Under the pieces are notes generated by a model that was given only the letters and a program-made list of their open reading frames with translations, had not been told where the DNA came from and searched no databases. From an uncultured Bacilli bacterium (GTDB lineage: Bacteria > Bacillota_I > Bacilli_A > RF39 > UBA660), in contig CANRPE010000016.1 in assembly GCA_947632405.1 (NCBI GenBank), forward strand, positions 1-35,428: a stretch of DNA of 35,428 nt, in the 5' to 3' direction. The position numbers and the translations under genes were made by a program. The number at the start of each line of letters is the position of its first letter. Positions within the stretch are counted from its first letter, which is position 1. Of this stretch, positions 2,595 to 35,428 are shown in pieces.

Positions 2595-3167
2595 ATGTTA
2601 TATCAATTAAAAACTAGAAAAAAAGAAATCATAATTATTTTATTTATTTTAGTATTTGCACTTTTTTTTACATATAAAATATATTATAAATTTAAAAATT
2701 TAAGAAATGTTGACTATAATACTCCAACTATTGACACTACTTTTCATGAAAAAACAGGAGCAGAAATAAATTTAACTAAATTAACTCCAGTTACAGATGC
2801 TATTGGATTATCTTCACGAGCTTATACTTTTACAATTAAAAATACTACTAATTCTAGTTTAAAATATTCTATTACAATAGAGGATAATGCAAAAAAAATA
2901 AAAAGTGATGATTGTTATGAGTATCAGATTCCACATAATTTAATAAAATTTTCTATTCATAAAAAAGGTGAAAAGAATAGTATTTATACTTTAAATAATT
3001 TAATAAATGGTGAAGTATTAACAAGAATTATTAAGTCAGGTCAAGAAGAAGAATATACAATGAGATTTTGGATATCAGGTGATTCCTTACAGATAGGAAC
3101 AAATCTTCATTATCATGGTTTAATTAAAGTAAATGATTTAGGAGCTCAAGTAGCAATTAGTAAATAA
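2595..3167 (+). CDS. Single-pass membrane protein, H-x-H-G family, copy 1
   Basis: Function unknown. Residues 1-12 are basic, 13-30 form a transmembrane helix or uncleaved signal anchor, and the remainder is a predicted extracytoplasmic beta-rich domain. It shares an ordered set of motifs with proteins at 3280-3855 and 32937-33593: P-x-x-D near the domain start, AYTFTIKN, an aromatic-S/R-I strand, a single Cys in DDC, FWIS, and NLHYHGLIKV near the end. The fold outline (signal anchor, beta-sandwich, YTF-x-I-x-N) recalls TasA/camelysin-type proteins, but I see no definite family signature and no SipW peptidase gene here. Its own promoter and GAGGTGG ribosome binding site precede it. Expected on the cell surface; secretion and partners unknown. 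Confidence 0.8.
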   Translation: MLYQLKTRKKEIIIILFILVFALFFTYKIYYKFKNLRNVDYNTPTIDTTFHEKTGAEINLTKLTPVTDAIGLSSRAYTFTIKNTTNSSLKYSITIEDNAKKIKSDDCYEYQIPHNLIKFSIHKKGEKNSIYTLNNLINGEVLTRIIKSGQEEEYTMRFWISGDSLQIGTNLHYHGLIKVNDLGAQVAISK

Positions 3168-3253: not shown

Positions 3254-3279
3254 CAAAGTAAGTTAGGATGTGGACTATT

Positions 3280-3855
3280 ATGGAAAAGAAAAAGAAAGAA
3301 AATAAATTAGGGTTAATTGTATTAATATTTAGTATAATTATTTGTTTATTGACAGTTAGTTATGCAATTTGGACACAAATGTTTCCAGGAACAAAAGAAA
3401 ATAAATTAAATACAGCAACATTAATATTAACAATGAATGAAGCAAATAATACTGCTATTTCATTAACTAATGCTGTACCTGTTTCTGATCAAAAAGGTTT
3501 AACTTATAAACCATATACTTTTACAGTAAAAAATTCAGGAACGGCTAGTGCAAATTACAGAATTATGCTTGTTAATGATACTAATTCATATGAAACAGAT
3601 GGTTGTGAAGATATGAAATTAGACTGGTCAAATATTAAATACTCTTTTGCTAAAAATAATGAAGTAACAACAACAGGAGTTTTATCTGATACTGCAGGAG
3701 TATTAAATATAGGAACTATTAGTCCTAAAGAAACAGATTCTTACAGTTTAATTTTATGGATAAGAAGTGAAGCAACATCTGAAATTATGAATCATCATTT
3801 TCATGGAAAAATCAAAATAGATGCTATTCAAAGTGATCAAGCTCTTAGTGATTAA
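3280..3855 (+). CDS. Single-pass membrane protein, H-x-H-G family, copy 2
   Basis: Paralogue of the preceding protein, function unknown. A Lys-rich N-terminus, a hydrophobic helix (about residues 10-27) ending in VSYAIWT, then an extracytoplasmic domain. Shared motifs: VPVSDQKG, YTFTVKNSG, TDGC with the only extracellular Cys, LILWIRS and HHFHGKIKID. The SYAIWT segment after the hydrophobic core resembles the cleavage region of TasA-like exported proteins, so it may be released rather than anchored. The ATG at 3280 is chosen because AGGATGTGG lies upstream at suitable spacing; an in-frame ATG at 3268 lacks a ribosome binding site. It has its own promoter and a strong terminator overlapping the stop codon, so it is a single-gene unit. 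Confidence 0.8.
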   Translation: MEKKKKENKLGLIVLIFSIIICLLTVSYAIWTQMFPGTKENKLNTATLILTMNEANNTAISLTNAVPVSDQKGLTYKPYTFTVKNSGTASANYRIMLVNDTNSYETDGCEDMKLDWSNIKYSFAKNNEVTTTGVLSDTAGVLNIGTISPKETDSYSLILWIRSEATSEIMNHHFHGKIKIDAIQSDQALSD

Positions 3856-11494: not shown

Positions 11495-11851
11495 ATGTCA
11501 AAAGAAACATTCAAAAACTTTGTTAGAAATTATCCAGAATTAAGTACTAGTGTTATGAATAATAAAACAAGTTGGCAAAAGCTATATGAATTATTTGAAT
11601 TATACGGAGAAGATAGCAATGTTTGGGATCAATATATTCCTAGTAGATTAAAAGAATCTTTTGATACTACAAAAACTTCGTCATTTTCAGAATTAATTAC
11701 AATGATAAAAAATATTGATTTAGATTCAGTTCAAAGAGGAGTTAATAGTTTACAAAAAACCATAGGATTATTACAAGATATTGGTATAGGTAGTAAAAAT
11801 AACCAAAATACTTATGAACCTAGACCATTATATCGATATTTTGATGATTAA
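11495..11851 (+). CDS. YlbD-like small protein
   Basis: 118 residues. The N-terminal half (FKNFVRNYPELSTSVMNNK, TSWQKLYELFELYGEDSNVW) matches the pattern of the YlbD family: F-V-x-x-x-P, a T/S-W-Q-x-L-Y block, an acidic turn and W. In Bacillus YlbD is called a spore coat protein, but that label is thin and no other spore gene is visible. The assignment is strengthened by order: a YlbE-like gene follows with a one-base overlap, then a YlbF-like gene and rsmD, the Bacillus order without ylbG. AGGTGAGA precedes the ATG. Real function unknown; a role tied to the Y-complex neighbourhood is only inference. Confidence 0.72.
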   Translation: MSKETFKNFVRNYPELSTSVMNNKTSWQKLYELFELYGEDSNVWDQYIPSRLKESFDTTKTSSFSELITMIKNIDLDSVQRGVNSLQKTIGLLQDIGIGSKNNQNTYEPRPLYRYFDD

Positions 11852-12985: not shown

Positions 12986-13828
12986 ATGAAAAAGTTTAAT
13001 AATAAAGGTTTTGCTATTTCTACCATGTTATATGGACTTTTAATTATAATTGTCTTAGTAGTAGGAACAATTTTAGCAACAATGGCTTTTAATCGAAAAA
13101 CTAGTAAAGAATTTACTTCTGAAGTTATTGAAGAATTAGAAGGCAAATTAGGAAGTTCTTATAGTCCATATTTTAAGGTATATAATTATAATGAAAAAAG
13201 TTGCCCAACAGGCGATGAAGAAACTTGTGTTGAAACAGATTGTTATAAAGAGGGAAAATCAGAATGTAGTGTAGGTACTATTGTTGATTATAAAGTAAAT
13301 AATGAGAAAACTATTACTTTTAATGTTTTAAAAGATAATAGAAGTACACTTATTATGCAATCAAAAGATAGTATTGTAACTAGTAAGTGGTATACAGGTT
13401 CTGATACAACTACTTATCCAGGTGATGCACTAGATGCATTAAAAAATGCAACACAAGATTGGACAAATGTAGAAGAATTAAATTATATTACAGGAAAATC
13501 TTGGTTTGGAATTCAGCCATGGACTAATGCTTTTTGTTCTAATGCTATCTATAAAGATTGCAGTGGTGCTGCTACTCAAAAGAACAGAGAAGGTGATAGA
13601 GCTAGAATAATTTTATTACAAGAGTTACTATCTTTTGGTTGTACTAGTTCTAATTACTCATGTGATAATTGGATTAGACCAAGTAATACTTCTGTTTGTT
13701 ATTGGACTATGAATGCAGGAATTAAAGATTATATGGCATGGTATCTTCAAGGTTCATCTGTTCATTCTAAAAATATATCTTATGAATGTGGAATTCGCGC
13801 AGTAGTAATAGTAAAAAAAGTAAAATAA
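12986..13828 (+). CDS. Pilin-like N-terminus with Cys-rich surface domain
   Basis: 280 residues, function unknown. The start MKKFNNKGFAISTMLYGLL resembles a class III (prepilin) signal: short basic leader, K-G-F, then an uninterrupted hydrophobic helix (about residues 8-30). The Glu expected at +5 of a mature pilin is absent, so cleavage by a PilD-type peptidase is doubtful. The outer part has ten Cys in several local groups (for example CPTGDEETC, SYSC-type pairs and YEC near the end), an even number suggesting disulfides, and a C-terminal segment CYWTMNAG...GIRAVVIVKK that recalls lectin-like surface domains of gut Firmicutes. Ribosome binding site weak (AAGGG at distance). A clear terminator overlaps the stop. 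No pilus assembly gene is in the window. Confidence 0.7.
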   Translation: MKKFNNKGFAISTMLYGLLIIIVLVVGTILATMAFNRKTSKEFTSEVIEELEGKLGSSYSPYFKVYNYNEKSCPTGDEETCVETDCYKEGKSECSVGTIVDYKVNNEKTITFNVLKDNRSTLIMQSKDSIVTSKWYTGSDTTTYPGDALDALKNATQDWTNVEELNYITGKSWFGIQPWTNAFCSNAIYKDCSGAATQKNREGDRARIILLQELLSFGCTSSNYSCDNWIRPSNTSVCYWTMNAGIKDYMAWYLQGSSVHSKNISYECGIRAVVIVKKVK

Positions 13829-19644: not shown

Positions 19645-20358
19645 GTGAATATATTTGACATCATCATTATTTTACTAATTATACTATCTGGTGTTTCAGG
19701 ATTAAAACAAGGTATCTTAAAATCTTTTGTTAACTTAGTTGGAACTATTTTAGTCTATTTTATTGCTTTTAATTTAAAAGATAAGGTTGGTATTTTTTTA
19801 TGTAAAATTTTTCCATTCTTTTCATTTGATGGTTATCCAACACTTAATATTTTAGTTTATCAATTAATTTCATTTATTTTTATTGCTTCGTTTTTATTTG
19901 GAATATTTAGTTTAGTAATAAAATTAACAGGAATTATACAAAAATTTGTTGATTTAACTATTATCTTAACAATTCCATCTAAAATTTTAGGATTTATTGC
20001 AGGATTAATTGAAGGGTATATGGTAATGTTTATTATTGTTACTTTATTATTTATTCCATTTAGAAATATAGATATATATAAAAATTCAAAATTGATAAAT
20101 AGTATGGTTTATCATAGTCCAGGCTTAACAAATTCTTTAGGTGGTATTACTGATAGTTTAACAGATATTTTTGCTATTATTTCTAATGTTGATTCTAATG
20201 ATGAAAACACTAAAAACCAAGTTAATTTAGATATTATGAAAGTATTATTGAATTGTCATGTCATAACTAAAGAAGACGCACTTGCATTAATAAATATGAA
20301 AAAGTTAGATTCAGTTAAAAATATTTTGGAAGTAGTTGAAAATTATAATAGTGTGTAG
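19645..20358 (+). CDS. CvpA-family membrane protein
   Basis: Four hydrophobic helices (roughly residues 2-30, 62-92, 99-110 with a break, 115-145) followed by a soluble tail. The N-terminal pattern NIFDIIIILLIILSGVSGLKQGILKSFVNLVGT is typical of CvpA/YshB: N-x-x-D, then G-x-x-x-G-x-x-x-G/S-F. The family was named for colicin V export, but its general role in Gram-positives is unknown. I place the start at the GTG 19645 because AGGAGATGA at 19631-19639 is well spaced; the ATG at 19636 lies inside that site. About 238 residues. Adjacent divergent rnhC supports the call. Confidence 0.85.
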   Translation: MNIFDIIIILLIILSGVSGLKQGILKSFVNLVGTILVYFIAFNLKDKVGIFLCKIFPFFSFDGYPTLNILVYQLISFIFIASFLFGIFSLVIKLTGIIQKFVDLTIILTIPSKILGFIAGLIEGYMVMFIIVTLLFIPFRNIDIYKNSKLINSMVYHSPGLTNSLGGITDSLTDIFAIISNVDSNDENTKNQVNLDIMKVLLNCHVITKEDALALINMKKLDSVKNILEVVENYNSV

Positions 20359-20371
20359 ATTCATTTTTTCC

Positions 20372-20400
20372 TTGATAAAAAACAAGAAATATGTTATAAT
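20372..20400 (+). promoter_or_regulatory. Sigma factor gene promoter
   Basis: TTGATA (20372-20377), 17 bases, TATAAT (20395-20400) with TG at 20392-20393. Among the strongest promoters in the window, combining a near-consensus -35 with an extended -10. Confidence 0.85.
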
Positions 20401-20430
20401 ACAGCTAATTTAAAAAGGGGATGGGTTATT

Positions 20431-21990
20431 ATGAAAGATGCAAAAAATAAAATGCAAATACTTGAAGAAGAATTAGTTCCATTTGTTATGAAGTTAAAAA
20501 AAACATATTTAATCTATGAAGTAAATACTAAAATAATTGATAAATTATTTCATCAAGAATTAGCTAATTGTTATAAGCAATATCCTAATATTTCAATTGC
20601 TTTAATGATTTCCAAAATAAAAAAATCTTTTATAGAAAAATTAAATAATTATACTATTAAATTATTAAAGAATAATCCTCAAATACTAAATAATTATTTA
20701 AATAAAAATTTACTTGTTCAAGATAATTTACATGATAATTTAAATCAATTAAAAAAATTTGAAAAATATTTTACTTATCTAAATTATTATCCTAATATTG
20801 ATGAAATGATGGGAATAATTCAAAAAAATGAAATTTTAAATGAACTATTATCTAAAATTATTGAGCCTTTTATTAGTAATAATTCAACTGATGAATCTTG
20901 TGTTCAATTAAATAAAATTACTAATAATGAAAAATTAAACAATATTTTAGAGTGTTATTGTATTTTAAAAAATATTGATATAGAAGATATGGAAATGATT
21001 AATGAAGATTTTTCTGAAAAATCATTAAACTCTATTAAATTATACTATGATAGTTTAAATAAAAAAGTATTATCAGCTCAAGAAGAAAAAGAATTAGCTT
21101 TAAAAATTGCTAGTAGTGAAGGTAGTCAGAAACAAGCTTATATTAATGAATTTCTAGAACATAATTTAAGATTAGTTCTTCCATTTGCTAAAAAGTATGC
21201 TTATGATGATAATTTATATTTAGATACTATTCAACAAGGAAATATTGGTTTAATTGATGCTATTAATCATTATGATGTTTCTAAGAAAGTTAAATTTAGT
21301 GTTTATGCAAAATGGTGGATTAAACAAAGTATTATTAAGTATCATAAAGAAACTAGTAGAGCAATAAGATTACCAAATCATATGTGGAATAAAATTAATA
21401 AGTATAATAAAACAAAAGAAGAATTAGAATCTAAATTCAATAAAAATATTACAGATGAAGAAATAGCTGAAAGTTTAAATTGGAATAAAGAATTAATAGC
21501 TACTATTAGAAATCATAAAGGTGATAGTTATTCATTAAATATTCCTATGAATAAGGTAACAAGTTATTTTGATGATTCAGAAATAGAATTAATTGATTCA
21601 ATCGTTGATCCTAATGTAGAAGTAGAAAAAGAAGCTATTGATAAAACTTCATATGATTCTATTATGAAAATTTTTGATTTAGCTAAATTAACAGATTTAG
21701 AAAGAAAAATATTATTGTATCGAAATGGATTTTATGGTTACTATGATATGACTTTAGATGAAGTAGCCAAAGTAATTGGAATAAAGCATCATCAAGAAGT
21801 TAGTTTAATTGAACAGAGAGCTTTAACTAAGTTAAGAAATTCAAATAGTATATTTTTATTACTTGATTATACCAATAATCCTATTGCTGCTGAAGAATAT
21901 ATATATGATTGTCGAAATAAAGATAATCAGAAAAAATTAAATAAAAAATTAATATATCAACAAAAAAAACAAGTCAAAAAAGCTAATTAG
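20431..21990 (+). CDS. Divergent sigma-70 factor with long N-terminal extension
   Basis: RpoD-like in the core: region 1.2 (SIKLYYDSLNKKVLSAQEEKELA, about residue 200), region 2 (NLRLVLPFAKKYAY, LDTIQQGNIGLIDAINHYD, KFSVYAKWWIKQSI), region 3 and region 4 (LTDLERKILLYRNGFYG...TLDEVAKVIGI). Two oddities. The first 195 residues are Asn/Leu/Ile-rich helix with no motif I recognise, not acidic region 1.1. In region 4.2 the usual T-R-E-R-I-R-Q-I recognition helix reads HHQEVSLI, with a one-residue insertion, so the residues that contact the -35 are changed. It is a single gene with its own promoter and terminator, not next to dnaG. It may be an alternative sigma; I cannot exclude that it is the primary one. 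AAGGGG precedes the ATG. Confidence 0.88.
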   Translation: MKDAKNKMQILEEELVPFVMKLKKTYLIYEVNTKIIDKLFHQELANCYKQYPNISIALMISKIKKSFIEKLNNYTIKLLKNNPQILNNYLNKNLLVQDNLHDNLNQLKKFEKYFTYLNYYPNIDEMMGIIQKNEILNELLSKIIEPFISNNSTDESCVQLNKITNNEKLNNILECYCILKNIDIEDMEMINEDFSEKSLNSIKLYYDSLNKKVLSAQEEKELALKIASSEGSQKQAYINEFLEHNLRLVLPFAKKYAYDDNLYLDTIQQGNIGLIDAINHYDVSKKVKFSVYAKWWIKQSIIKYHKETSRAIRLPNHMWNKINKYNKTKEELESKFNKNITDEEIAESLNWNKELIATIRNHKGDSYSLNIPMNKVTSYFDDSEIELIDSIVDPNVEVEKEAIDKTSYDSIMKIFDLAKLTDLERKILLYRNGFYGYYDMTLDEVAKVIGIKHHQEVSLIEQRALTKLRNSNSIFLLLDYTNNPIAAEEYIYDCRNKDNQKKLNKKLIYQQKKQVKKAN

Positions 21991-21998
21991 CTATTTAA

Positions 21999-22037
21999 AA
22001 AAATGTCTTCTCAATTATGAATAGACATTTTTATTTT
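21999..22037. terminator. Bidirectional terminator, sigma gene / yigZ
   Basis: AAAAATGTCT (21999-22008) and AGACATTTTT (22023-22032), 14-base loop, A-run and T-run on opposite sides; lies between convergent genes and covers the yigZ stop. Confidence 0.75.
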
Positions 22038-22609
22038 GAAGATTCAATATAATCACTTTTAATAATTTGATAATTATATTTTATTAATTTATTTAAACTA
22101 TTATCATCAATTAAAACTCTATATTTTATATTTTCTGTAAATTCTTGATTTAATATAGTAGAATCTTTTAATAAATAATCAATTTGTTTTTGTTCAGAAT
22201 AAGTAAAGGTTAGATCAATTATTTTTCCAGAAATTAATTTACAAATTTTTGAAGATTTTAAAGCTTCCTTAATACTTTTTGTATATGCTCTTACTAAACC
22301 ACTTGCTCCTAATTTAATTCCTCCAAAATATCTAACAACAACAGCTAAAATCTTATTCATATCTTCTTTTTCTAAAACATTTAATATTGGTATACCAGCA
22401 GTACCACTAGGTTCTTTATCATCATTAGAATGTTTTTGTTGATTTAAAATATAGGCATAACAATAATGGGTTGCTTTAGGATATTTAATTTTTACACTAT
22501 CTAATTTTTGTTGAATATCTTCGATATTATCAATTTTATATAAAAGAGTAATAAATTTAGAATTTTTAATTATTATTTCATTTTCAGTATCTGTTGTTAT
22601 GGTATTCAT
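22031..22609 (-). CDS. yigZ: YigZ/YvyE, IMPACT-family protein
   Basis: IMPACT-family protein linked in other organisms to translation control; the bacterial role is not settled. Family marks: KNSKFITLLYKI near the N-terminus, YPKATHYCYAY (about 44-54), SNDDKEPSGTAGIPILNVL and VVVRYFGGIKLGASGLVRAYT. The C-terminal ferredoxin-like domain is present but weakly conserved. 192 residues, a little under the usual 200-215. The minus-strand start follows GTGGTGAT, with TATAAT (22626-22631 on the plus strand) about 17 bases further upstream. It is divergent from the ABC transporter operon. Confidence 0.93.
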   Translation of the reverse strand: MNTITTDTENEIIIKNSKFITLLYKIDNIEDIQQKLDSVKIKYPKATHYCYAYILNQQKHSNDDKEPSGTAGIPILNVLEKEDMNKILAVVVRYFGGIKLGASGLVRAYTKSIKEALKSSKICKLISGKIIDLTFTYSEQKQIDYLLKDSTILNQEFTENIKYRVLIDDNSLNKLIKYNYQIIKSDYIESSK

Positions 22610-27337: not shown

Positions 27338-28486
27338 GTGTTAAAAAAGAAAAAAACAAGTGAATTAGATATAGAATCTTTAAACGAAGTAATTATATTA
27401 GGAAAAAAAATTTTAGGCGTTGGTTTTACCGTTATTATAATTTCTTTGATTTTATTAGTATTATATTTATTAAAGATGTTGAATATTTTTGGCATTTTAA
27501 AAGATATTTTAGTAATTATTTCTCCAGTTTTTATTGGTCTTTTAATAGCGTGGTTATTTGATCCAGTAGTTGATTTTTTAGAAACAAAGAAATTTCCAAG
27601 AATAGTGGGTTGTATCGTTGTATATTTAGTTTTCATTGGAATTTTATCTTTTTTATTGTTCTTAATGCTTCCTTCATTTATTGATCAAATTAAAGAATTT
27701 ATTACAACAATACCTAGCTTATTATCAGAAGCCAAACAATTTGTATCAAGAACTTTATCATCAATTAGTGTAGGAACAGATATTGATGTTTCATCAATAA
27801 AACAGCAAATTTTTGCTAGTTTAGAAACACTTGGAACAAACTTAACAACGAGTTTACCAAATACGTTACTATCACTTGGTAAAAGTATTATTAGTGGTGG
27901 AGTTTTTGTTATTTTAGGATTAATGATAGGATTTTATATGCTATATGATTTTGATCGAATTAACACAAGTATTTTAGAATTTATTCCTAAAAAATTTCAT
28001 GAAGATGCAAAAGATTTAAAAAATCGAATTAATCATTCATTACGTGAATATGTAATGGGATTACTTACAGTTATGACTTTAGTTTTTATTTCTCAAGGAA
28101 TATGTCTTACATTAGCTGGATTAGAAGCACCACTTATTTTTGCCCTTTTCTGTGCAGTAACTGATATTATTCCATACTTTGGTCCATATATTGGTGCTAT
28201 TCCAGCAGTTTTTGTTGGATTTACAATCTCACCATTTACAGGAATATGTTGTATTATTTCTATAGTTATTGTCCAACTTCTAGAAAATAATTTTTATCAA
28301 CCATTAATCATGGGACATGCAATGAAACTTCATCCTGTAACAATTATGTTAGGACTATTGATTTTTCAACATTTTTTTGGTATCATAGGTATGATTATTG
28401 CAACTCCTGTTATTGCAACCTTAAAAATAATATTTAAATTTATAGATGAAAAAATAAAAGTAATGGAAAAAATTAAAGAAAATTAA
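27338..28486 (+). CDS. AI-2E-type (PerM/YtvI) membrane protein
   Basis: Polytopic protein with about eight helices in the family arrangement: two near the N-terminus (IILVISPVFIGLLIAWLFDPVVD block), a third after RIVGCIVVYLV, an outer or amphipathic middle, one at GGVFVILGLMIGFYMLYDF, and a C-terminal bundle with AVTDIIPYFGPYIGAIPA and LLENNFYQPLIMG, which are diagnostic. 382 residues. The family name comes from one E. coli member; most are uncharacterised or sodium/proton antiporter-like, so autoinducer transport should not be assumed. The start is GTG with AGGTGATA upstream. No terminator lies before the T-box 15 bases downstream, so read-through into that leader is possible. Confidence 0.92.
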   Translation: MLKKKKTSELDIESLNEVIILGKKILGVGFTVIIISLILLVLYLLKMLNIFGILKDILVIISPVFIGLLIAWLFDPVVDFLETKKFPRIVGCIVVYLVFIGILSFLLFLMLPSFIDQIKEFITTIPSLLSEAKQFVSRTLSSISVGTDIDVSSIKQQIFASLETLGTNLTTSLPNTLLSLGKSIISGGVFVILGLMIGFYMLYDFDRINTSILEFIPKKFHEDAKDLKNRINHSLREYVMGLLTVMTLVFISQGICLTLAGLEAPLIFALFCAVTDIIPYFGPYIGAIPAVFVGFTISPFTGICCIISIVIVQLLENNFYQPLIMGHAMKLHPVTIMLGLLIFQHFFGIIGMIIATPVIATLKIIFKFIDEKIKVMEKIKEN

Positions 28487-32936: not shown

Positions 32937-33593
32937 ATGGGAAAAAAAGTATATCGTTTTAGACCAAAACAGAAAATATCTCCTCAAACAGAACCACATG
33001 ATGATATTAATAATAAAAAGATTAAAGTAAATATTAGTAAATCTTTAGCTAGAGAAATTAATTTTACATTAGTTTTTGCTTTTTTAATATGTGTTTTTCT
33101 TTTAGCAAGTTCTTATTCTATATTTTCTGTCAAAAATAAAAGTAAAGATTATAATTCTATTACTGTAGGAACATTGAAAATTGATTTTTTACAGGATACT
33201 ATAAATGTTTTAAATTTAAATGGAGCTTATCCTACAAGTGATGAAGATGGTCAAAAAGAAGAACCATATACTTTTAAGATTACTAATAGTGGTTCTTTGA
33301 ATGCATCATATAGTATTAAAATTTTAAATGATAATGATATGATAGCGGCAGATGGTTGCCAAAATAATTTATTAGATGATTCACTTATAAAAGTTAGTAT
33401 AAATAATGGAACTCCTTTTTTACTATCTTCAATAAAAGATAATGATTATGTAATTGAAAATGGAATTATAGAAGCAAATGTAACAAAGAATTATGAAATC
33501 AGAATTTGGATTGTTGATACTGCAGGTAATGCTGTATTAGGTCGTCACTATCATGGTAAAATTATTGTTGATGGTGTCAATTTAAATACTTAA
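32937..33593 (+). CDS. Single-pass membrane protein, H-x-H-G family, copy 3
   Basis: Third paralogue, function unknown. It has a longer basic cytoplasmic N-terminus (about 45 residues, KKVYRFRPKQK... KIKVNISKSLAREI), a membrane helix at about 46-63, then the shared outer domain: GAYPTSDEDGQ, EPYTFKITNSG, ASYSIKIL, ADGC with a single Cys, EIRIWIVD and GRHYHGKIIVDG. The longer cytoplasmic tail could carry an interaction absent from the other two. It stands between holA and ruvA with its own promoter and a strong terminator, so it is an independent unit some 29 kb from its relatives. Confidence 0.8.
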   Translation: MGKKVYRFRPKQKISPQTEPHDDINNKKIKVNISKSLAREINFTLVFAFLICVFLLASSYSIFSVKNKSKDYNSITVGTLKIDFLQDTINVLNLNGAYPTSDEDGQKEEPYTFKITNSGSLNASYSIKILNDNDMIAADGCQNNLLDDSLIKVSINNGTPFLLSSIKDNDYVIENGIIEANVTKNYEIRIWIVDTAGNAVLGRHYHGKIIVDGVNLNT

Positions 33594-35297: not shown

Positions 35298-35303
35298 TAT
35301 TTC

Positions 35304-35332
35304 TTTAAAAATAATTTAAAATGTGGTATAAT
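35304..35332 (+). promoter_or_regulatory. Promoter at the right edge, extended -10
   Basis: TTTAAA (35304-35309), 17 bases, TATAAT (35327-35332) with TG at 35324-35325. It is followed by an excellent ribosome binding site, TAGGTGGTGATA (35347-35358), so a transcript with a translated start is expected just downstream. Confidence 0.65.
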
Positions 35333-35360
35333 ATCAACGAATTTTGTAGGTGGTGATAGT

Positions 35361-35428
35361 CTGAAAAGAAAAACAAAATTTATTTTATAAAAATATGTAA
35401 AAAAGGGCAGACTTCCCCTTACCCCAAA
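35361..35428. other. Mini-ORF and GC-richer hairpin at the edge
   Basis: After the strong ribosome binding site the only in-place start is CTG at 35361, giving nine codons (KRKTKFIL after the start) and TAA at 35388-35390. A GC-richer patch follows from 35405. On the minus strand AAGGG, eight-base loop, CCCTT and TTTT (35399-35420) would form a terminator for a gene arriving from the right. The window ends eight bases later, so neither reading can be settled. Confidence 0.35.

Follow-up and report, generated by a model that had tools for sequence, protein, structure and literature searches.

An accessory RpoD-class sigma factor with a shared N-terminal head and an altered -35-reading helix in an uncultured bacterium of the order RF39

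Known RpoD-like factors and the sigma factors of the genome

Group 2 sigma factors are RpoD-like alternative factors, as in cyanobacteria or RpoS, and primary-type sigma factors are, to our knowledge, usually few and conserved. The window considered here (the whole stretch of DNA analyzed, 35,428 nucleotides) comes from an uncultured Bacilli bacterium of the order RF39, and at 20431-21990 (+) it contains one uninterrupted ORF, starting with ATG, for an accessory RpoD-class sigma factor of 519 amino acids. This protein resembles the group 2 factors in being an RpoD-type paralogue that is dispensable and has the complete set of core domains but differs from them in possessing a head without a Pfam match and in the loss of its -35 residues. 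In MzaA of the MZA anti-phage system, an RpoD-like core likewise follows a long N-terminal part, and MzaA is among the lower-ranked matches of the window sigma (151.4 bits, residues 215-484 aligned). In contrast, this score is far under the cut-off of 800, the MzaA of PADLOC aligns at residues 226-471 only, and no MZA partner genes were recognized among the neighbors in the window, which read by eye as housekeeping genes. For a phytoplasma genome, one report (PMC3750655) describes 20 ORFs annotated as rpoD beside one housekeeping sigA, a situation that is similar to the present one in its many divergent RpoD-like paralogues. According to that report, the phytoplasma genes lie in transposase-bearing mobile units, whereas the factors described here (NTD-sigmas) possess a head and in most cases have housekeeping genes on either side.

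The genome (1.35 Mb, 54 contigs, 96% complete) contains eight region-2 matches. On contig C21, dnaG, named from its translation, is directly followed by a standard RpoD of 364 amino acids and then by one more gene, and this RpoD passes the curated cut-offs of TIGR02393 (399.1 bits; cut-off 354) and NF006666 (598.3 bits; cut-off 572). The best NCBIfam model for the 519-residue protein is also RpoD_Cterm (TIGR02393), but its scores of 164.8 bits with this model and 142.4 bits with NF006666 miss both cut-offs. The preliminary description had proposed an alternative RpoD-class factor and pointed to the surroundings of dnaG as the place to look for another rpoD. Because the standard RpoD is present there, the window gene adds a second RpoD-class factor to the genome, and a role as the sole RpoD or housekeeping sigma is excluded by the dnaG-rpoD pair together with the missed cut-offs. 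The two proteins share the order of regions 1.2, 2, 3 and 4 and, largely, the core-binding and -10-melting residues. They differ in that RpoD possesses a short region 1.1, with which the 195-residue head of the window sigma has no profile kinship, and an intact R/E/R helix instead of H/Q/S; in addition, RpoD is present throughout the genus, although split into pieces in G002 and G005, whereas the window gene is accessory. Assignment of the head to RpoD region 1.1 found no support (hhalign probability 0.2).

The six further region-2 matches of the genome include one over one of two SigG cut-offs, and SigE/SigK-like (over the SigK subfamily cut-off), SigF/SigG-like, SigH-like and ECF-like proteins are represented once each; the match on contig C45 is interrupted by the contig end. 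Sporulation is predicted for the order RF39 in PMC10868615, which would fit the sporulation sigma factors of this genome. A YlbD_coat match in the window (11495-11851; PF14071, 68 bits) also fits the sporulation sigma factors encoded elsewhere in the genome.

The locus, its core domains and its promoter-reading residues

The sigma gene starts 72 bases past cvpA and ends 40 bases short of the convergent yigZ (neighboring genes were named from their translations, cvpA additionally with Pfam support), and its codon-position GC (0.33/0.20/0.08) resembles the values of cvpA and holA, two other genes of the window. Its best promoter match, at 20372..20400 (+), is of the RpoD type and consists of TTGATA, a 17-base spacer, TG and TATAAT, with 11/12 consensus positions; it is the top of the 16 promoter-like matches in 20300-22150, which are no commoner there than in shuffled sequences (19.5). 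Since cvpA and yigZ adjoin each other, without room for a gene, in five of the eight congeners (G002, G004, G006, G007 and G008), the sigma gene is accessory. The cvpA-yigZ junction of G005 holds an unrelated helix-turn-helix regulator gene (L156 4782-6194), and the site seems to accept insertions; the two genes are on separate contigs in G003 and both at contig ends in G001. Beside yigZ of G003, and in the same orientation, lies a gene for a headless RpoD-like sigma of 274 amino acids (L055:5916-6740; 34% identity with the window gene across 263 residues), which is possibly the same locus without the head.

The closest models to the window sigma are those of RpoD, and the RpoD-like regions 1.2 and 2 and the start of region 4 previously recognized in the protein were recovered, with Pfam r2, r3 and r4 matched in order and region 1.2 weakly. 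Regions 1.2 and 2, delimited by Pfam and by alignment to RpoDs, comprise residues 201-310 (21031..21360, +), of which residues 242-310 match Sigma70_r2 with 50.5 bits and residues 201-226 match r1_2 with an E value of 0.11, under the cut-off of that model. Region 3 (Pfam r3) comprises residues 321-374 (21391..21552, +), and the part past it (residues 364-396) is longer and divergent and has a low-confidence prediction. Region 4, with an altered 4.2 recognition helix, follows at residues 417-470 (21679..21840, +; Pfam r4 and alignment), and the motif LLDYTNNPIAAEEYIYDCRN at residues 477-496 (21859..21918, +) is the counterpart of 'LAxYxxxPxxSLxNIExFR' in relatives.

E. coli residue numbers were assigned to the window sigma by motif. 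On this basis, equivalents of D403, Q406, N409, Y430, W433, W434 and Q437 are retained in regions 1.2 and 2, with the substitutions E407Q, T429V, T432K, T440I and R441K, and just ahead of region 3 the equivalent of H455 is retained and E458 is replaced by N. The 4.2 helix reads KHHQEVSLIE where RpoD has TRERIRQIE. Alignment to the RpoD of the same genome (GIKHHQEVSLIEQ versus GVT-RERIRQIEA) gives the changes R584 to H, E585 to Q, R586 to E and R588 to S plus one inserted residue, which agrees with the H, Q and S and the one-residue insertion first noticed by inspection. All 26 RpoDs compared have R584, E585 and R588, that is, 18/18 from the same taxonomic family and 8/8 from other families of the class, the latter eight assigned as RpoD by best match and length. 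These replacements support the view that the window sigma would have lost consensus -35 readout.

The same positions were compared in two sets of 22 relatives with the head: the first consists of 21 hand-picked full-core members of 57 ORFs (some genes repeated) and the core half of L044, and the second of all rows of the relatives' alignment A6 except P0001. R584 is retained in 21/22 and 18/22, E585 in 21/22 and 14/22, and R588 in 20/22 and 16/22 of these relatives. At the -10-reading positions, W433 is W in 9/22 and 15/22 (versus 26/26 RpoDs), T440 is T in 11/22 and 10/22 (versus 25/26 RpoDs), and H455 is H in 9/22 and 10/22. The relatives thus mostly conserve the -35 residues and vary more at positions that read the -10 element. 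The window copy is an outlier within the NTD-sigma family: its -35 residues are lost, and W433, W434, Y430, Q437 and H455 stay beside T440I, R441K, E458N and E407Q.

Both kinds of promoter mentioned in the preliminary description occur in the window, namely TGnTATAAT with a poor -35 element and TTGACA-17-TATAAT, the latter at ruvA. TGnTATAAT with at most 3/6 -35 matches precedes rnhC, abc1, the permease gene at 27338 and the gene at 32937; these four genes, the sigma gene and ftsK account for the six of nine TGnTATAAT sites that lie just upstream of genes. The element is not enriched across the whole window (9 seen, 6.73 +/- 2.96 expected). In a comparison from which matches below 35% identity were dropped and in which the congener stretches yielded no ftsK, it is kept in congeners at rnhC in 7/7 loci, at the permease gene in 5/6 (G004 being without it), at abc1 in 1/1 and at the 32937 gene in 1/1. 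The profile gave no NTD-sigma match in G005 and G006, and a weaker search gave none in G001, G002 and G004; G003 and G007 carry other NTD-sigmas, and G003 also carries the headless sigma beside yigZ. The proposal that the TGnTATAAT promoters are the target set of the window sigma was therefore abandoned, as they are not enriched in the window and are kept at orthologous genes of congeners without the window gene; because of this conservation, RpoD can be assumed to read them.

Three small proteins encoded in the window (2595-3167, 3268-3855 and 32937-33593) are alike by eye and have an N-terminal membrane helix; they match no Pfam family over its cut-off, with one weak DUF1616 match, and a relative of the 32937 gene occurs in G003 (48% identity). 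Another gene (12986-13828) encodes a 280-residue protein without a Pfam match, the N terminus of which (NKGFAISTMLYGLLIIIVLV) looks pilin-like by eye.

The N-terminal head and the factors that carry it

The head can be divided into part 1 (residues 1-82; 20431..20676, +), with helices at residues 2-29, 33-50 and 56-81 in a predicted sigma-2-like arrangement, and part 2 (residues 83-186; 20677..20988, +), which is helical and contains the family signature around LNYYPNIDE and LECYCILKNIDIED. The N-terminal 200 residues match no Pfam family at E <= 1, and a scan of genome contigs with the single window protein as query found no relative. In contrast, the head matches a profile built from the N-terminal portions of nine further long sigma factors (hhalign probability 97.9, E 3e-13), a profile that includes L046 and two sequences of L047, from G023 and G015, genomes without a match to the head profile of the family-wide survey. 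The earlier statement that these 195 residues match nothing thus stands for the curated libraries searched and fails for related genomes, in whose sigma factors the extension is a common domain.

In profile searches, 291 genomes of the taxonomic family were sampled, of which at least 65 contain the head domain, representing 49 of 150 genera; class-wide, it was found in at least 12 of 395 sampled genomes, all 12 within the same family. Both counts are lower bounds, as a subset of the candidates per genome was scored, and G110 was matched in the family-wide survey and missed in the stricter class-wide one. Two or more head matches occur in 24 genomes, some of them pieces of one gene, as in G068. 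The 21 head-bearing loci in named contigs come from uncultured Bacilli, Tenericutes or bacterium entries, and one is binned as Methanobrevibacter. This contig (L121), inside a Methanobrevibacter MAG, probably reflects a binning error, and its NTD-sigma gene contains a stop codon. Searches of open-licence PMC papers returned no account of such a sigma family. Judged from sequence, the window gene appears to belong to a lineage-restricted, patchy, fast-evolving and often repeated family, the NTD-sigmas, with a common head of about 190 residues before region 1.2.

By reading, the layout of NTD-sigmas is a head of about 190 amino acids, regions 1.2-4 and the post-region-4 motif, and many continue with one to several repeats of about 65 amino acids and a C-terminal domain. 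The window copy stops after the post-region-4 motif, without C-terminal repeats, and L127 (525 amino acids) and L131 (532 amino acids) likewise end soon past it. The repeats of L125 span about residues 530-960, where both region-4 and FakA-like_C models match: the region-4 family PF08281 is best at 716-742, with the first half of the model, and the unrelated FakA-like_C exceeds its cut-off with 42.4 bits and is best at 534-577. In L123 and L132, the PF08281 matches are weak (E 0.053 and 0.18, respectively). A derivation of the C-terminal repeats from region 4 is therefore only partly supported.

Some members of the family are arranged in rows. G063 contains four NTD-sigmas between ileS and pflB and G196 three at the same site, in arrays of four (L097 4039-11057) and three (L098 4122-9288), and the members of the L097 array diverge strongly in the core tree. 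In G003, an NTD-sigma with repeats, broken into two ORFs, lies before queA (L044:5540-9842), and G015 possesses two tandem long RpoD-like genes (1196 and 913 amino acids) between queA and tgt (L047 1714-8111), although the head profile gives no match in that genome. The contig of the window ends just past ruvB (35298-35428), at the spot where G003 has its broken NTD-sigma, and the break at 35428 could hide another NTD-sigma-like gene. An integrase-like ORF, recognized by eye, adjoins the NTD-sigma of L107 (6223-6543) and was the one sign of a mobile element noticed next to an NTD-sigma among the inspected loci.

In a core-domain tree with unsettled bootstrap and long branches, the 26 RpoDs form one group (99/85), the NTD-sigmas are not united (9 changes), and the window gene joins a long-branch group. 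Its branch measures 1.63 changes per column, whereas the trimmed RpoD core is identical in G000 and G003. Since the window gene is without a close orthologue, dN/dS comes from relatives, in which it is 0.22-0.61 over seven pairs; the relatives are thus under purifying selection, though loosely.

The fold of the head was modeled alone with 22 sequences (pLDDT 88.1, pTM 0.78). In a structural comparison comprising 198 chains, nine of the top 12 rows are sigma entries, matched within residues 1-82 (Z 5.0-8.4, rmsd 3.0-3.4 over 75-79 residues), and they include the SigE N-terminal domain, sigma28, sigma32, SigB, sigmaS, SigA and sigma70, with 9n9q_C taken as a sigma chain from its entry title. The nine rows represent one homologous family and hence are not nine independent matches, Z below about 13 may arise by chance for helical folds, and rows without relation to sigma factors have Z values as high as 6.4 (rmsd 8.1) and 5.9 (rmsd 1.9 over 65 residues). 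Foldseek gave no match at E <= 0.001 against the PDB, where the top row was a SigB complex (E 1.4), and a search of viral structures gave none at that threshold either; a PDB search by sequence returned designed helical proteins and weak matches, a profile comparison with sigma cores gave nothing, and with a sigma-2 HMM the heads do not outscore their reversed sequences (median -1.6 for both). In a register test, 13 of 42 heads align to the sigma-2 HMM at the offset predicted from structure, compared with 2.65 +/- 1.46 for shuffles (maximum 6 in 40 rounds) and 0 for reversed heads. For this test, 8 near-duplicates were removed from 50 domains, the register range of 3-16 surrounds the offset of about 9 given by the structural match, its width was chosen after the HMM matches were known, and the heads are mutually related, which makes the test weaker than its numbers suggest. 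Residues 1-82 are thus predicted to resemble sigma region 2, a modest likeness, and the head may hypothetically represent a second, degenerate sigma-2 without the residues for core binding; by eye, neither the core-binding QEGN motif nor core-binding residues are visible in it. A by-eye suspicion that part 2 is a second region 3 was not supported (2/42 in register, shuffles 5.0).

Possible function of the window sigma and competing explanations

A possible mode of action is proposed for the window sigma, and we regard it as probable: the protein would be an accessory sigma that binds core RNA polymerase by region 2, melts the -10 element, makes little or no consensus -35 contact and is governed by its head. 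The gene itself would be expressed from an RpoD-type promoter. After binding to core RNA polymerase through region 2, the factor may open a private set of promoters by the -10 element or a modified extended -10 element, contacting the -35 element hardly or not at all and possibly with the help of an activator. The head could act as a regulatory or docking module, for example, by holding the factor inactive until it is released. Core binding, promoter choice and regulation by the head are what we infer for this protein. Several points weigh against this mechanism: E407, T440, R441 and E458 are also changed, which renders the -10 readout uncertain as well, the long branch of 1.63 with the altered 4.2 helix could also mean decay, the sigma-2 likeness of the head is modest, and the core-domain tree does not unite the NTD-sigmas.

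Decay would make the window gene a duplicate NTD-sigma on its way to a pseudogene, with the 4.2 changes and the insertion as neutral damage. The very long branch, the changes at otherwise (nearly) invariant positions, several of them beyond 4.2, and the missing C-terminal repeats that many relatives have are consistent with such a fate, and broken relatives exist, such as the G003 copy in two ORFs (L044) and the stop-containing matches. We nevertheless consider it unlikely, as 519 codons stay open in an AT-rich genome, the codon-position composition is like that of the neighbors, a promoter match is present, the head and the post-region-4 motif are recognizable, and the relatives are under purifying selection. 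It is still less plausible that the protein is an ordinary group 2 sigma that uses the same promoters as RpoD and contacts the -35 element with other residues of the altered helix. RpoD_Cterm being the best NCBIfam model and the retained equivalents of W433, W434, Q437 and H455 would suit such a factor, but the replacement of R584, E585 and R588 together with an insertion, unlike in any of the 26 RpoDs, and the differences T440I, R441K and E458N argue against it.

An origin from a phage or mobile element, in which the sigma would redirect the host polymerase toward mobile genes, is the explanation to which we give very little credence. The patchy presence, the varied insertion sites, the matches of PHROG 351 and gut phage contigs to the sigma core and the integrase-like ORF of L107 point toward it, as do the many rpoD-like genes in mobile units of phytoplasmas described in PMC3750655. 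In contrast, the head was not found in viral contigs, searched with two short patterns, or in phages or plasmids, searched with the L117 domain; 136 phage records match the window protein, and among the 12 listed the match begins at residue 163-200. Furthermore, the genes on both sides, in the window as in most of the relatives inspected, look like chromosomal housekeeping genes by our naming.

A bolder proposal, which we put forward as doubtful, is that NTD-sigmas are internally duplicated sigmas, with a degenerate sigma-2 ahead of a working sigma and, in many of them, repeats possibly derived from region 4.1 behind it. The head would then serve as an intramolecular decoy or switch, the -10 readers would change fast, and the window copy would act on -35-free promoters.

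Returning to the preferred explanation of an accessory, head-governed sigma, the repeated duplication and the fast divergence of the -10 readers suggest that NTD-sigmas may be factors with differing promoter choice. In one family of gut Bacilli with small genomes, additional RpoD-class factors that share a head, many of them with C-terminal repeats, occur repeatedly, and the residues with which they read promoters drift, whereas RpoD hardly changes. NTD-sigmas would therefore offer a natural test set for the evolution of -10 and -35 specificity and would also inform the regulation of sigma factors by a built-in domain.
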